Assembly: GCF_001544495.1 (NCBI RefSeq)
Contig: NZ_FCNZ02000014.1
Location: 62,001 to 126,000 of the forward strand
Origin: Caballeronia telluris
GTDB taxonomy: Bacteria; Pseudomonadota; Gammaproteobacteria; Burkholderiales; Burkholderiaceae
Direction of reading: 5' to 3'
DNA length: 64,000 bases
How positions within the stretch are numbered: the stretch's first letter is position 1; the number at the start of each line of letters is the position of its first letter. Positions 11,514 to 13,690 of this stretch are shown one piece after another. The notes below the pieces were generated by a model. That model ran no database searches. It was not told where the DNA came from and worked only from the letters and a program-made list of their open reading frames with translations. The translations under genes were made by a program, and so were the position numbers.

Positions 11514-12434
11514 TCATGCCATCCGTTTCAGTTTCGGATCGAGCGCGTCGCGCAGCCCGTCGCCGAGAAGGTTGATGACGAGCACCGAGATCAGGATCGA
11601 CAGACCCGGCATGGTGACGATCCACCACGCGCTTTCGATGTAGTCGCGCGCCGAGGCGAGCATCGCGCCCCATTCCGCCGCCGGCGGCTGCACGCCCAAA
11701 CCGAGAAAGCCCAGCGCGGCGGCATCGAGGATCGCGGAGGAAAAGCCGAGCGTCGCCTGCACGATCAGCGGCGCGGCGCAGTTCGGCAGCACTTGCGAGA
11801 ACATCAGCCGCACGGTGCCCGCGCCCGCGACGCGCGAAGCCGTCACGTATTCCCTCTGCAGTTCGCCGAGCGCCGAGGCGCGCGTGAGACGCACGTAACC
11901 CGGCAGCGCGACGATCGCGATCGCGAGCATCGTGTTGACGAGCCCCGGCCCGATGATCGCGACGACCGCTACCGCCAGCAGCAGCGAGGGCAGCGCGAGC
12001 AACACGTCCATCACGCGCATGATCGGCGTGTCGAGCCAGTGGAAGAAGGCGGCGCAGAGGCCGAGCACGACGCCCGGAATCAGCGCGAGCACGACCGACA
12101 CGAAGCCGATCCAGAACGACAGCCGCGCGCCGTACATCAGGCGCGAGAGGATGTCGCGGCCGGCTTCGTCGGTGCCGAGCAGGAACTGGCGGTTGCCGCC
12201 TTCGAGCCACGCGGGCGGGATTTTCACGAAGTCGCGATATTGCTCGATCGGGCTGTGCGGTGCGATCAGCGGCGCGAAGATCGCGATGAAGATCAGCACG
12301 AGCACGATCACGCCAGACACGACGGCGCCGCGATTGCGCGAGAAGTTCGCCCAGAACTCGCGGCCCGCGACGAGCCGACCGCTCGGCGGCGGCGTGACGG
12401 CTTGTGGGGGGAGATTGTTTTGGATGTCGGCCAT
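11514..12434 (-). CDS. dppC: Dipeptide ABC transporter permease DppC
   Basis: A protein of 306 residues with an N-terminal membrane helix (VVSGVIVLVLIFIAIFAPLI), the long periplasmic segment LLGTDEAGRDILSRLMYGARLS typical of DppC/OppC, and the permease EAA-like loop. Two consecutive ATGs (12437 and 12434) exist. AGGAGG at 12439-12444 is 1 nt from the first and 4 nt from the second, so I favour the second. The start codon and Shine-Dalgarno lie inside the last of three 80-bp tandem repeats, so initiation of dppC is built into the repeat unit. Confidence 0.93.
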   Translation of the reverse strand: MADIQNNLPPQAVTPPPSGRLVAGREFWANFSRNRGAVVSGVIVLVLIFIAIFAPLIAPHSPIEQYRDFVKIPPAWLEGGNRQFLLGTDEAGRDILSRLMYGARLSFWIGFVSVVLALIPGVVLGLCAAFFHWLDTPIMRVMDVLLALPSLLLAVAVVAIIGPGLVNTMLAIAIVALPGYVRLTRASALGELQREYVTASRVAGAGTVRLMFSQVLPNCAAPLIVQATLGFSSAILDAAALGFLGLGVQPPAAEWGAMLASARDYIESAWWIVTMPGLSILISVLVINLLGDGLRDALDPKLKRMA

Positions 12435-12671
12435 CATGCCTCCTGCCGAGCCGCCTCAAGGGAGGCATGCGCCCCCTCGGGGGGCAGCGAACGAATGTGA
12501 GCGTGGGGGTGCATCATGCCTCCTGCCGAGCCGCCTCAAAGGAGGCATGCGCCCCCTTGGGGGGCAGCGAACGAATGTGAGCGTGGGGGTGCATCATGCC
12601 TCCTGCCGAGCCGCCTCAAAGGAGGCATGCGCCCCCTCGGGGGGCAGCGAACGAATGTGAGCGTGGGGGTG
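12432..12671 (-). repeat. Three 80-bp tandem repeats between dppB and dppC carrying coupled micro-ORFs
   Basis: Three head-to-tail copies (12432-12511, 12512-12591, 12592-12671) differ at only two positions. Each contains two inverted repeats, ATGCCTCC/GGAGGCAT and a GCCCCC/GGGGGC hairpin, so the unit is REP-like. On the minus (dpp) strand each copy encodes a short ORF reading about MHPHAHIRSLPPEGAHASF then EAARQEA. These run 12594-12680 (28 aa, joined to the dppB stop as TAATG), 12514-12594 and 12434-12514 (26 aa each). Each stop overlaps the next start as TGATG, ending at dppC, and each junction has an AGGAGG. The chain could keep ribosomes moving from dppB to dppC. Whether the peptides matter is unknown. 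Confidence 0.85.
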
Positions 12672-12679
12672 CATATTCA

Positions 12680-13690
12680 TTACCTCGTGTGGCGAATGCG
12701 CGGATTCAACACGCCGTAGAGCAGATCGACGACGAGATTCACCAGAATCACGAGCGTCGCGATCATCAATATGCCGCCCTGCACGACCGGATAGTCGCGC
12801 CGGGAGATCGCGTCGATCAGCCACTTGCCGACGCCCGGCCACGAGAACAGCGTTTCGGTCAGCACCGCGCCCGCGAGCAGCGTGCCGACCTGCAGGCCGA
12901 TCACGGTGACGACGGGAATCAGCGCATTACGCAGCGCATGCACGACCACGATCCGCGCGGGCGCGAGACCCTTCGCGCGCGCGGTGCGGATATAGTCCTC
13001 GCGCAGCACTTCGAGCATCGACGAGCGCGTCATCCGCGCCACCACCGCGAGCGGAATTGTGCCGAGCACGATGGTCGGCAAGATCAGGTGGCTCACGGCC
13101 GACTTGAACGCGCCTTCGTCGGTGGAAAAGAGCGCGTCCCACAGCATGAAGCCCGTGACGTGCGGAATGTCGTATTCGACCGCGATGCGGCCCGACACCG
13201 GCGTCCAGCCGAGCTTCGCGGAAAAGAACATGATGAGGATCAAGCCCCACCAGAAGATCGGCATCGAATAGCCGGTGAGCGCGGTGCCCATGACGCCGTG
13301 ATCGACGACAGTGCCGCGTCTCAACGCCGCAATCACGCCCGCCGGCAGGCCGACCACGAGCGCGAAGATCATCGCGCAGATCGACAGCTCGACGGTCGCG
13401 GGAAAGCGCGCCATGAATTCGCCCATCACGCTCGTGTTCGTGATGATCGACATGCCGAGGTCGCCCTTCAGCGCATGTCCGACGTAGTGGAGATATTGAA
13501 GCGGCAGCGGCTGGTCGAGCCCGAGCCGTTTCATGGCTTCGGCGTGCGCGGCCGGGTCCACGCCGCGCTCGCCCATCATCACTTCGATGGGATCGCCCGG
13601 GATCAGGTGGATGAGTGCGAACGCGAGGATCGTGATGCCGATGAACGTCGGAATCACCATGCCTATGCGCCGCAAAACGAATCGGAACAT
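12680..13690 (-). CDS. dppB: Dipeptide ABC transporter permease DppB
   Basis: A protein of 336 residues with the classic DppB N-terminus RRIGMVIPTFIGITILAFAL, the segment HLIPGDPIEVMMGE, and the C-terminal permease domain with YIRTARAKGLA and the final VNLVVDLLYGVLNPRIR. About six transmembrane helices. It forms the inner-membrane pore with DppC. Its TAA stop overlaps the ATG of the first repeat-encoded micro-ORF. It lies 113 bp downstream of dppA, a spacing often seen when the binding protein is made in excess. Confidence 0.94.
   Translation of the reverse strand: MFRFVLRRIGMVIPTFIGITILAFALIHLIPGDPIEVMMGERGVDPAAHAEAMKRLGLDQPLPLQYLHYVGHALKGDLGMSIITNTSVMGEFMARFPATVELSICAMIFALVVGLPAGVIAALRRGTVVDHGVMGTALTGYSMPIFWWGLILIMFFSAKLGWTPVSGRIAVEYDIPHVTGFMLWDALFSTDEGAFKSAVSHLILPTIVLGTIPLAVVARMTRSSMLEVLREDYIRTARAKGLAPARIVVVHALRNALIPVVTVIGLQVGTLLAGAVLTETLFSWPGVGKWLIDAISRRDYPVVQGGILMIATLVILVNLVVDLLYGVLNPRIRHTR

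Follow-up and report, generated by a model that had tools for sequence, protein, structure and literature searches.

Termination-reinitiation (TeRe), as described by Huber et al. (PMC6728339, PMC10666635), links neighboring genes whose stop and start codons overlap by 1 or 4 nt (TGATG, ATGA), and requires a very short distance between them. The commonest spacings are the -4 and -1 overlaps, and coupling is almost wholly abolished at a distance of about 20 nt (PMC10666635). A related case is mgtQ, an 8-amino-acid ORF between mgtC and mgtB in Salmonella, where the downstream ribosome-binding site (RBS) lies in a stem-loop and is freed by translation (PMC8092293). The locus described here resembles both systems, in that every stop/start junction of a tandem array between dppB and dppC overlaps by 1 or 4 nt, and in that small intergenic ORFs lie within an operon; the likeness to mgtQ may extend to sequestration of the RBS. 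However, the TeRe reports concern gene pairs, whereas here one or more micro-ORFs of 12-44 aa, many of them repeat-borne, divide a spacer of 43-245 nt into short steps. Moreover, mgtQ is a single regulatory ORF with codon-specific action, whereas the array has tandem copies, no conserved peptide and relatives in a dispersed family.

The window (the whole 64,000-nt stretch of DNA that was analyzed) contains dppB and dppC as neighbors in a peptide-import operon. Genes were named after their best NCBIfam matches, which for dppB (PRK10914, 514 bits, cut-off 590), dppC (PRK10913, 415 bits, cut-off 483), dppA (703 bits, cut-off 1005) and dppD (451 bits, cut-off 541) fall under the curated cut-offs, and which for dppF (PRK11308, 574 bits, cut-off 408) lies above it.

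Anatomy of the array between dppB and dppC

TRF reported a single tandem array at 12432-12674, with a period of 80, 3.0 copies and 98% matches. Reading of the - strand revealed that the three 80-bp copies encode micro-ORFs of 28, 26 and 26 aa, chained first by TAATG, where the dppB stop meets the start of micro-ORF 1, and then by TGATG. In particular, dppB (12680..13690, - strand), upstream of the array, ends in a TAA at 12682-12680, the final A of which is the first base of the micro-ORF 1 ATG at 12680. Micro-ORF 1 (MNMHPHAHIRSLPPEGAHASFEAARQEA*; 12594..12680, - strand) has 28 aa, or 26 aa from an alternative ATG at 12674, and stops with TGA at 12596-12594. Micro-ORF 2 (12514..12594, - strand; 26 aa) runs from ATG 12594 to TGA 12516-12514 with TGATG at both ends, and micro-ORF 3 (12434..12514, - strand; 26 aa) from ATG 12514 to TGA 12436-12434. 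Because dppC (11514..12437, - strand), the downstream gene, opens either at ATG 12437 (MMAD...) or at ATG 12434, the stop of micro-ORF 3 overlaps either candidate start, as ATGA in the former case and as TGATG in the latter. An AGGAGG on the - strand precedes micro-ORF 2 (12604-12599), micro-ORF 3 (12524-12519) and dppC (12444-12439), lying within the 3' arm of hairpin 2 of copies 1, 2 and 3, respectively. The terminal GAGG of dppB (CACACGAGGTAATG) occupies the native Shine-Dalgarno (SD) position and now precedes micro-ORF 1; in relatives whose site is empty (lacking the element), a GAGG in this position at the dppB end gives the strongest SD match, 6-12 nt ahead of the dppC ATG.

Two hairpins are predicted in each copy. 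In copy 3, hairpin 1 (CCCCCCGAGGGGGC) lies at 12471..12484 and hairpin 2 (GCATGCCTCC...GGAGGCATG around TTGAGGCGGCTCGG) at 12435..12470, both on the - strand, with those of copies 1 and 2 at +160 and +80. A single unit read on the operon strand folds no better than shuffled sequences (z -0.59), the opposite strand gives z -1.89, and the 301-nt region folds better than shuffles (z -2.51). Across family copies the arms of hairpin 2 covary, the 43 distinct arm pairs showing pairing at 87% of positions versus 56% (maximum 66% in 1000) after shuffling of partners. Predicted accessibility of the dppC SD is lower in filled than in empty sites (median unpaired 0.115 versus 0.37), and that of the dppC ATG shows no difference between the two (p 0.71). 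Median arm pairing probability varied with the length of dppC included, at 0.995, 0.895 and 0.46 for 20, 35 and 60 nt, by a score that uses one fixed register and returns 0 for the window's own hairpin. A terminator reading was rejected, as no T run follows hairpin 1.

A preliminary description of this DNA had proposed three 80-bp copies between the two genes, micro-ORFs chained by TAATG and then TGATG with an AGGAGG for each next start, and a last junction that is the start of dppC; all of this is borne out by the TRF result and the - strand reading. Its two hairpins per unit stand as predictions for each copy, but not as a fold that distinguishes a single unit from its shuffles on the operon strand.

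Frame and end points are conserved at filled dppB-dppC junctions

We read 54 loci of the same genus: dppB was matched in 55 genomes, 53 of which were read, and G017 contributed a second copy; genomes with a partial dppB (G014, G042) or no match (G047, G056, G071) fall outside this set. The spacer from the dppB stop to the dppC ATG measures 3-15 nt in 36 of the 54 and 65-245 nt in the other 18, and all 18 long spacers have a first ATG no more than 8 nt past the dppB stop. The frames so opened encode 20-32 aa and end between -6 and +8 nt from the dppC ATG, or start a chain (G000). Seventeen other genomes of the genus carry the unit at the identical junction, each as one copy or a diverged copy, and the relay persists even where the element itself has acquired indels, as in four lineages (G069, G011, G066, G003). 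Hairpin 2 is lost or rearranged in five of the 18 long spacers (G050, G072, G011, G070, G003). A neutral star simulation, which assumes independent lineages, kept a mean of 10.2 of 17 and never more than 15 over 2000 runs, as against 17 observed. Mapped on the dpp gene tree, presence and absence of the element require 10 changes.

A second genus contributed 59 junctions, 30 of them short (no more than 10 nt as anchored; one, L403 at -24, is probably mis-anchored, and in some others the start is a GTG roughly 3 nt downstream) and 29 of 43-134 nt. Among the long spacers, 28 hold ATG relays that end at -6 to +11 and one holds a GTG relay that ends at -3. The repeat core is absent from 18 of these 29, namely 17 with relays of 12-15 aa and L389; core status was judged by reading in L408 (present), L438 (split by a nested palindrome) and L441 (absent). 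All 17 core-less relays of 12-15 aa end in GGAGGC(A/G)TGATG. Taking the two genera together (113 junctions), the spacer is either 0-15 nt or 43-245 nt, and in 47 of 47 long spacers a micro-ORF starts just past dppB and stops at the dppC start (46 ATG, 1 GTG); counting the G000 chain, all of them end within -6 to +11 nt of the dppC ATG. These counts are not independent, because the copies and the genomes are related. As background, 10 of 153 other co-directional spacers of 40-135 nt, mostly from other genera of the order and with genes called by a codon-usage script, pass a looser relay test.

Frame and end points are conserved although the peptide is not. In 14 of the 18 orthologues, variant micro-ORF codons comprise 11 synonymous and 28 nonsynonymous changes (28% versus 30% expected), and the ratios are much the same in the two remaining frames (11:24 and 9:25), so that a functional peptide is unsupported. 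The 12-15 aa relay peptides of the second genus are unrelated, and a natural 41-aa relay used as query matched five predicted proteins. The relevant product is probably something other than the peptide.

Distribution, orientation and origin of the repeat family

Within its own genome the unit has three matches, all in the array, and a search allowing 3 mismatches added one in a chance-like place; dispersal in this genome was rejected, the dppB-dppC array being the sole site apart from that place. The unit belongs to a directional repeat family of the Burkholderiales, with 57 pattern matches by count in genome G479. Our survey of the class covers the matches listed (23 of the 57 in G479), leaves out the window's copies, and drops places whose left 30 nt repeated an earlier one; gene calls here, as in the wider-family and background sets, come from the codon-usage script, and their starts may be off. 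Among the matches listed, 65 class arrays were scored by context as +E+ (51), -E+ (5), -E- (4), in- (3), in+ (1) and +E- (1), so that 56 of 61 intergenic arrays precede a same-strand gene. Also among the matches listed, 52 arrays are sense and 7 antisense to genes (p 1.4e-9), and 54 of 65 start-bearing copies share one common frame, 51 of these 54 through two compensating spacings, 8+22 nt (34) and 9+21 nt (17). Nine of the 74 class copies among the matches listed have no start within 14 nt.

Copies that precede a same-strand gene number 57, of which 41 were scored and 16 had no recognized loop or next ATG. From the common-frame start, 33 of the 41 scored copies among the matches listed terminate where the next start lies, and another 7 form in-frame fusions; in the frame one base over 36 stop early, and in the frame two bases over 22 fuse and 6 couple. 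Because the two-base-shifted frame often fuses or couples, part of this transparency reflects general sequence make-up. Ten of 14 tandem arrays tested form a continuous relay or in-frame chains with periods of 80-84, and four are without starts; the long-linker arrays L107, L124, L157 and L160 stood outside this test. Nine matches in plasmid records comprise 6 that couple, 2 that fuse in frame and 1 that does neither. One plasmid copy (L276) that has lost one base reads on beyond the next start, and a copy in antisense context (L338) stops after 2 codons. In a wider-family sample of at least 120 stretches (organism listed for 80; 125 copies read, 102 with a recognized loop), long-linker copies are often found within genes or in antisense orientation, as judged on 107 copies with enough flank.

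Random orientation and frame had been set beforehand as the refuting result; the copies are random in neither (52 sense versus 7 antisense, 54 of 65 in one frame, 47 of 47 relays).

The three copies most likely arose by local duplication of the single copy present at this junction in relatives. The preliminary description had called the repeat mobile or expanding; tandem arrays here and elsewhere, together with empty and filled sites, bear this out in part, but we found no mobilizing enzyme and, in this genome, a single site. MITEs are recognized by terminal inverted repeats, a target duplication and a cognate transposase. We identified neither terminal inverted repeats nor a transposase. Bases around the left and right starts resemble each other more when both come from one copy than when they come from different copies (4.09 versus 3.46 of 8; 33 copies; 1 in 1000 shuffles as high). 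For target duplication as the source of the arms the signal is weak: the longest word common to the two flanks averages 4.7 versus 3.9 when shuffled (86 wider-family copies), partly owing to tandem neighbors. Phage origin was rejected (no match at E <= 1e-5 among 50,697 phage records), and Rfam gave no match at E <= 1 in 12200-12900. Neither a description of the element nor its core letters turned up among the matches listed in open-licence literature, and none of the Burkholderiales words searched occur in RepRanger (PMC12306157).

A putative ribosome relay and its place among described systems

We propose, with a probability of roughly 0.78, that the 80-bp unit acts as a ribosome-relay cassette, by which genes of an operon stay translationally coupled. 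The unit is a short directional repeat with the start codon first and one frame open throughout, and it closes with an SD inside the 3' arm of hairpin 2 and a stop codon that abuts or overlaps the start that follows. Since the element lies between the dppC start and the native SD that closes dppB, this SD and the ribosomes leaving dppB would feed micro-ORF 1; termination at TGATG, with AGGAGG just upstream, would feed the next micro-ORF and finally dppC, and translation of each micro-ORF should also unfold the hairpin in which the next SD lies. Tandem copies would add stations without breaking the chain, as the unit runs from start to start. We infer that ribosomes translate the micro-ORFs and that coupling is what selection keeps.

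Alternatively, structure may come first, the repeat being an RNA or DNA hairpin element (acting in mRNA stability, processing or differential expression), with a micro-ORF that arises incidentally from sequence rich in GC and poor in stops. Covariation of the hairpin-2 arms (87% versus 56% paired), the lack of peptide-level selection, and the many long-linker copies of the wider sample inside or antisense to genes fit this reading; we nevertheless think it unlikely, given that all 47 long spacers preserve the frame and the points where it begins and stops, whereas 5 of 18 have a lost or rearranged hairpin 2, and that the core is missing from 18 of the 29 long spacers of the second genus. Less probable again is a regulated leader, in which, as with mgtQ or leader peptides, the micro-ORF peptide or its rate of translation is sensed and sets dppC output: a peptide that varies freely (28 nonsynonymous versus 11 synonymous changes; unrelated peptides in the second genus) and a class that occupies many different gene junctions argue against it, although the lower predicted accessibility of the dppC SD in filled sites (0.115 versus 0.37) is what a switch needs, and mgtQ frees a sequestered RBS between mgtC and mgtB (PMC8092293). 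That the tandem copies are an artefact of assembly or chance, as might be feared for a draft genome of 163 contigs, is very improbable, since 17 further genomes of the genus have the unit at this junction and tandem arrays occur in other genomes.

A selfish element, tolerated only where its frame passes ribosomes and purged when broken, without host function, is compatible with the relay cassette and differs from it only in who benefits. We rate it at just short of an even chance: its absence from many relatives (the junction is short in 36 of 54 cases in one genus and in 30 of 59 in the other) and the 57 pattern matches in G479 speak for it, whereas core-less relays exist, as if a relay were useful once a spacer is present.

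Returning to the relay cassette, the occurrence of related repeats between other gene pairs suggests dispersed DNA that survives in operons by being translated through. At even odds, this would be a dispersed repeat class whose unit is a start-to-start micro-cistron with its own RBS, spreading or surviving chiefly between co-directional genes, relaying at any copy number, and selected for the act of translation rather than for the peptide; the relay could outlive the repeat as a micro-gene of 12-15 codons, and the class would amount to operon-adapted mobile DNA. Filled and empty sites at one gene pair, sampled across two genera and 110 genomes, with two- and three-station tandem arrays and relays of 12 to 44 codons, offer a natural experiment on what termination-reinitiation needs. 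They also suggest a route by which small translated ORFs, under the usual length for gene callers, arise in operons, and that what is conserved in a small ORF may be the fact that it is translated, while its peptide is free to change.

In RAYT-associated REPs, copies flank the gene of a Y1 transposase and genomic copy number is high. Here there are three copies at one site; copy number is high elsewhere, as in G479. None of 16 PF01797 matches (in 8 of 9 genomes tested) has a core within about 1.5 kb at up to 2 substitutions, and genome G175 has 14 core matches and no PF01797 match. The REP tag, GTAG or CGTC at one palindrome end, occurs on neither strand of the 247-bp array, and tagless REP-like families are said to exist by the source of this criterion (PMC3733652). 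The family shares with REP/REPIN sequences and their RAYT, as presented there, a short, hairpin-forming, dispersed and sometimes clustered habit; unlike them, it has no tag, no RAYT next to copies in the nine genomes tested and a strict orientation to genes, and the earlier REP-like label, and with it REP membership, was dropped on these three grounds. Bor repeats of Bordetella, from the same bacterial order, are also stem-loop repeats near or between genes, Bor-1 being intergenic and 93-117 bp long (PMC1590033, PMC2267715); this comparison is by description only, and the available parts of those reports do not mention translation. Like the family, Rickettsia palindromic elements are small repeats with an open frame at unrelated genes (PMC10969869). 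Those elements are known for in-frame insertion within proteins, whereas family copies are mostly intergenic cistrons and less often N-terminal extensions: among the matches listed, in-frame fusion accounts for 7 of the 41 scored copies, and a sense position within a gene for 1 of the 65 arrays.

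A chain of micro-ORFs between dppB and dppC

In the peptide-import operon, which lies on the - strand, an 80-bp repeat occurs in three head-to-tail copies between dppB and dppC (12432–12674; TRF, 98% matches). Read on the operon strand, dppB ends in TAATG, in which a start codon overlaps the stop, and three micro-ORFs of 28 (or 26), 26 and 26 aa follow. The stop of each micro-ORF shares one base with the next start (TGATG), AGGAGG precedes every next start, and the final stop overlaps both candidate dppC starts, the ATG at 12437 and the ATG at 12434. The preliminary description had reported three 80-bp copies with coupled micro-ORFs, which TRF and the operon-strand reading confirm, and had remarked that the chain survives even though 80 is not divisible by 3; this is borne out, the period being 80 bp because 27 codons minus one shared base make 80. 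Its interpretation is largely supported, and strengthened, by what follows; the label REP is dropped, as the copies do not lie beside Y1 transposases (none was found next to repeat copies in the nine genomes tested). A whole-genome DNA search of the window's genome returned no copies besides these three, and the core pattern with up to three mismatches matched the array copies and one chance-like place. Elsewhere in the window, 722–772 holds a tandem 13-bp repeat, GCTTCACGTGACT (3.9 copies, 94% matches).

Filled and empty junctions in two genera

Within the window's genus, presumably Caballeronia, the core with at most two mismatches was found in 20 of 58 genomes: at dppB–dppC in 14, elsewhere in 4 (G002, G008, G060 and G067) and at chance-like places in 2 (G044 and G053). 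After locating dppB and dppC we read the junction at 54 loci, and the distance from the dppB stop to the dppC ATG was 3–15 nt in 36 and 65–245 nt in 18. The repeat lies between the dppC start and GAGG, the best match to a dppC Shine–Dalgarno (SD) sequence in the empty sites. In all 18 long sites a frame of 20–32 aa opens at the first ATG past dppB and either stops near the dppC ATG, at most 6 nt ahead of it or 8 nt past it, or, in the window's genome, starts the chain; the remaining two frames are less regular. Such a relay, which starts just after the upstream stop and ends at the downstream start, is also kept in lineages with indels. One C is missing from G069, where the frame runs into a TAA at the start of dppC (CTAATG versus CGAATG in five relatives), G011 has gained one C inside the element, G066 has several changes inside it, and G003 carries two deletions that together remove about 21 nt. 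Presence of the repeat requires 10 changes on the dpp gene tree, which repeated loss, repeated gain or exchange would explain equally well.

A pattern search returned three copies (L279, L301 and L303) from another genus of the family, presumably Paraburkholderia; all lie at dppB–dppC, and we therefore surveyed the junctions there. The 59 junctions read, from 57 of 58 genomes, comprise 30 short ones and 29 of 43–134 nt, and every one of the 29 long spacers contains a relay. In 28 the relay runs from an ATG to a stop placed at -6 to +11 nt relative to the dppC ATG; in the other, L389, it runs from a GTG to a stop at -3. The repeat (ATG...PHA...RSL) is present in 11 of the 29; the core is absent in 18, namely L389 (76 nt) and 17 spacers of 43–54 nt (L406, L415, L420, L422–L424, L427, L430, L432–L434, L436, L437 and L439–L442). 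The relays of those 17 have 12–15 codons, for example MTMQTPQHQDNRKEA and MFRYPPIHRREA, each followed by a stop, and all end in GGAGGC(A/G)TGATG. Their right ends resemble that of the repeat; they may be shrunken repeats or have arisen independently. In the two genera combined, 47 of 47 spacers longer than 15 nt contain a relay, although the genomes are related and these are not 47 independent events. As background, 10 of 153 other co-directional, core-less spacers of 40–135 nt, drawn from named loci (mostly of other genera) and from the window, pass a looser relay test.

In L438 (one of the 11 repeat-bearing junctions of the second genus) and L355 (G479), a second palindrome of ~45 nt, GACCGGAG...CTCCGGTC, is nested within hairpin 1, the first of two predicted hairpins per copy; despite it, the relay of L438 is intact, its 44-aa frame still stopping at the dppC start.

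Orientation and reading frame in the wider family

A scan of named genomes for a wider core yielded at least 120 stretches. Among the 80 listed, most are from Comamonadaceae (Polaromonas, Ramlibacter, Hydrogenophaga and Variovorax), with some from Burkholderia, Bordetella, Achromobacter and others. Enough flank was available for 107 wide-family copies: the genes on both sides share the copy's strand in 45 and are on the opposite strand in 18; the rest are inside genes (11 sense, 18 antisense), convergent (6), divergent (5) or undecided (4). The short-linker class, to which the window's copies belong, is more one-sided (n = 16: 11 +E+, 2 -E+, 2 sense within genes and 1 +E-, where signs give the strands of the left and right genes relative to the element, E). 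A larger short-linker sample (from 6 of the 399 genomes searched in the order and 18 of the 170 in the family; 65 arrays, 74 copies read) gave 51 +E+, 5 -E+, 4 -E-, 3 antisense and 1 sense within genes, and 1 +E-, with 52 sense versus 7 antisense arrays (p = 1.4e-9), and a same-strand gene comes after 56 of the 61 intergenic arrays.

A start codon lies within 14 nt of the core in 65 copies and is lacking in 9. The start is in one frame in 54 of the 65 (ATG 45/54, GTG 6/7, TTG 3/4), in 51 of them by two compensating spacings, 8+22 nt (34 copies) and 9+21 nt (17), and the commonest product is 28 aa with an ATGA end. From the repeat's start, 33 of 41 scored copies couple, 7 fuse in frame and 1 reads on; a one-base shift leads to an early stop in 36, and a two-base shift to 22 fusions, 10 early stops, 6 couplings and 3 that read on. 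Among nine plasmid records matching the repeat, 6 couple from its ATG, 2 give an in-frame fusion, and L276, which has lost one base, reads on; all three plasmid matches with surrounding annotation have own-strand genes on either side. The annotated start of BEI72740.1 (succinate dehydrogenase assembly factor 2; L274, 2000–2356) is the repeat's ATG. The real start may be downstream, and short-linker repeats may thus produce N-terminal over-annotation.

Continuous chains occur in 10 of 14 tandem arrays tested, the window's included: those of period 80 are joined by TGATG, those of 81–83 by ATGA or TGAC-ATG, and some of 81 and 84 read in frame. In L252, L292, L296 and L307, starts are missing in some or all copies. 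Judged from sequence, junction type varies with period, and most types would keep ribosomes moving.

A palindromic block, CACGGCCGGC...GGAGCGATGCTCCGCG, is nested whole or in part in hairpin 2 of L275, L293, L295 and L355; in the first three the relay frame still stops at ATGA. L061, L133, L135, L139 and similar long-linker copies have terminator-like T/A-run hairpin-2 arms (CTTTTTGTC...GACAAAAAAA), with a similar A run in the left flank.

Conservation, structure and a model for coupling

Hairpin-2 arms, the 3' one of which holds AGGAGG in the window's copies, vary between copies, yet the two arms of a copy fit one another: 87% of positions pair over 43 distinct arm pairs, versus 56% with shuffled partners. 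Within the window's genus, paired changes (CTCC/GGAG, CTCG/CGAG, CTCT/AGAG) hold this pairing in most sites, and hairpin 2 is rearranged or lost in 5 of the 18 long ones. Variant codons in 14 in-frame orthologues gave no sign of selection on the micro-ORF peptide (11 synonymous and 28 nonsynonymous, 28% versus 30% expected at random, with similar ratios in the other two frames). Random changes, equal in number, to a typical junction left the relay intact in a mean of 10.2 of the 17 lineages, with a maximum of 15 over 2000 runs, versus 17 of 17 observed, a rough comparison that treats lineages as independent. The simulation, the hairpin losses and the codon ratios together indicate that the frame and its end points are more strictly conserved than hairpin 2, and that the peptide is not conserved.

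The dppC SD is predicted to be less accessible in filled than in empty sites (median unpaired 0.115 versus 0.37, p = 3e-6), and predicted start-codon accessibility did not differ between them (p = 0.71). Predicted pairing varies with the stretch folded, and we therefore only infer that a ribosome opens the SD.

As to spread, the similarity between the bases around the left start and those around the right start of a copy slightly exceeds the chance level. At one gene junction, filled in L349 (G462) and empty in L356 (G494), upstream of what we take to be an RND-transporter-like gene, the outer hairpin-2 arm of L349 matches GCGCC, the five bases that precede the start codon in L356. This match, a lead and not a result, raises the possibility that the element inserts at start codons with arms adapted to, or copying, the target site.

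According to PMC10666635, termination–reinitiation coupling is nearly gone at ~20 nt, and -4 and -1 overlaps are the most frequent spacing. A spacer of 43–245 nt would therefore break dppB–dppC coupling unless translated. The repeat would supply the needed parts: a start beside the stop of the upstream gene, a frame that stays open, an SD, and a stop placed on the start that follows. Initiation at the micro-ORFs would then be followed by reinitiation or by SD opening, with selection presumably acting on coupling; the anatomy, conservation and orientation of this scheme are observed. A precedent, described in PMC8092293, is mgtQ of Salmonella, a small intergenic ORF able to free the ribosome-binding site of the next gene.
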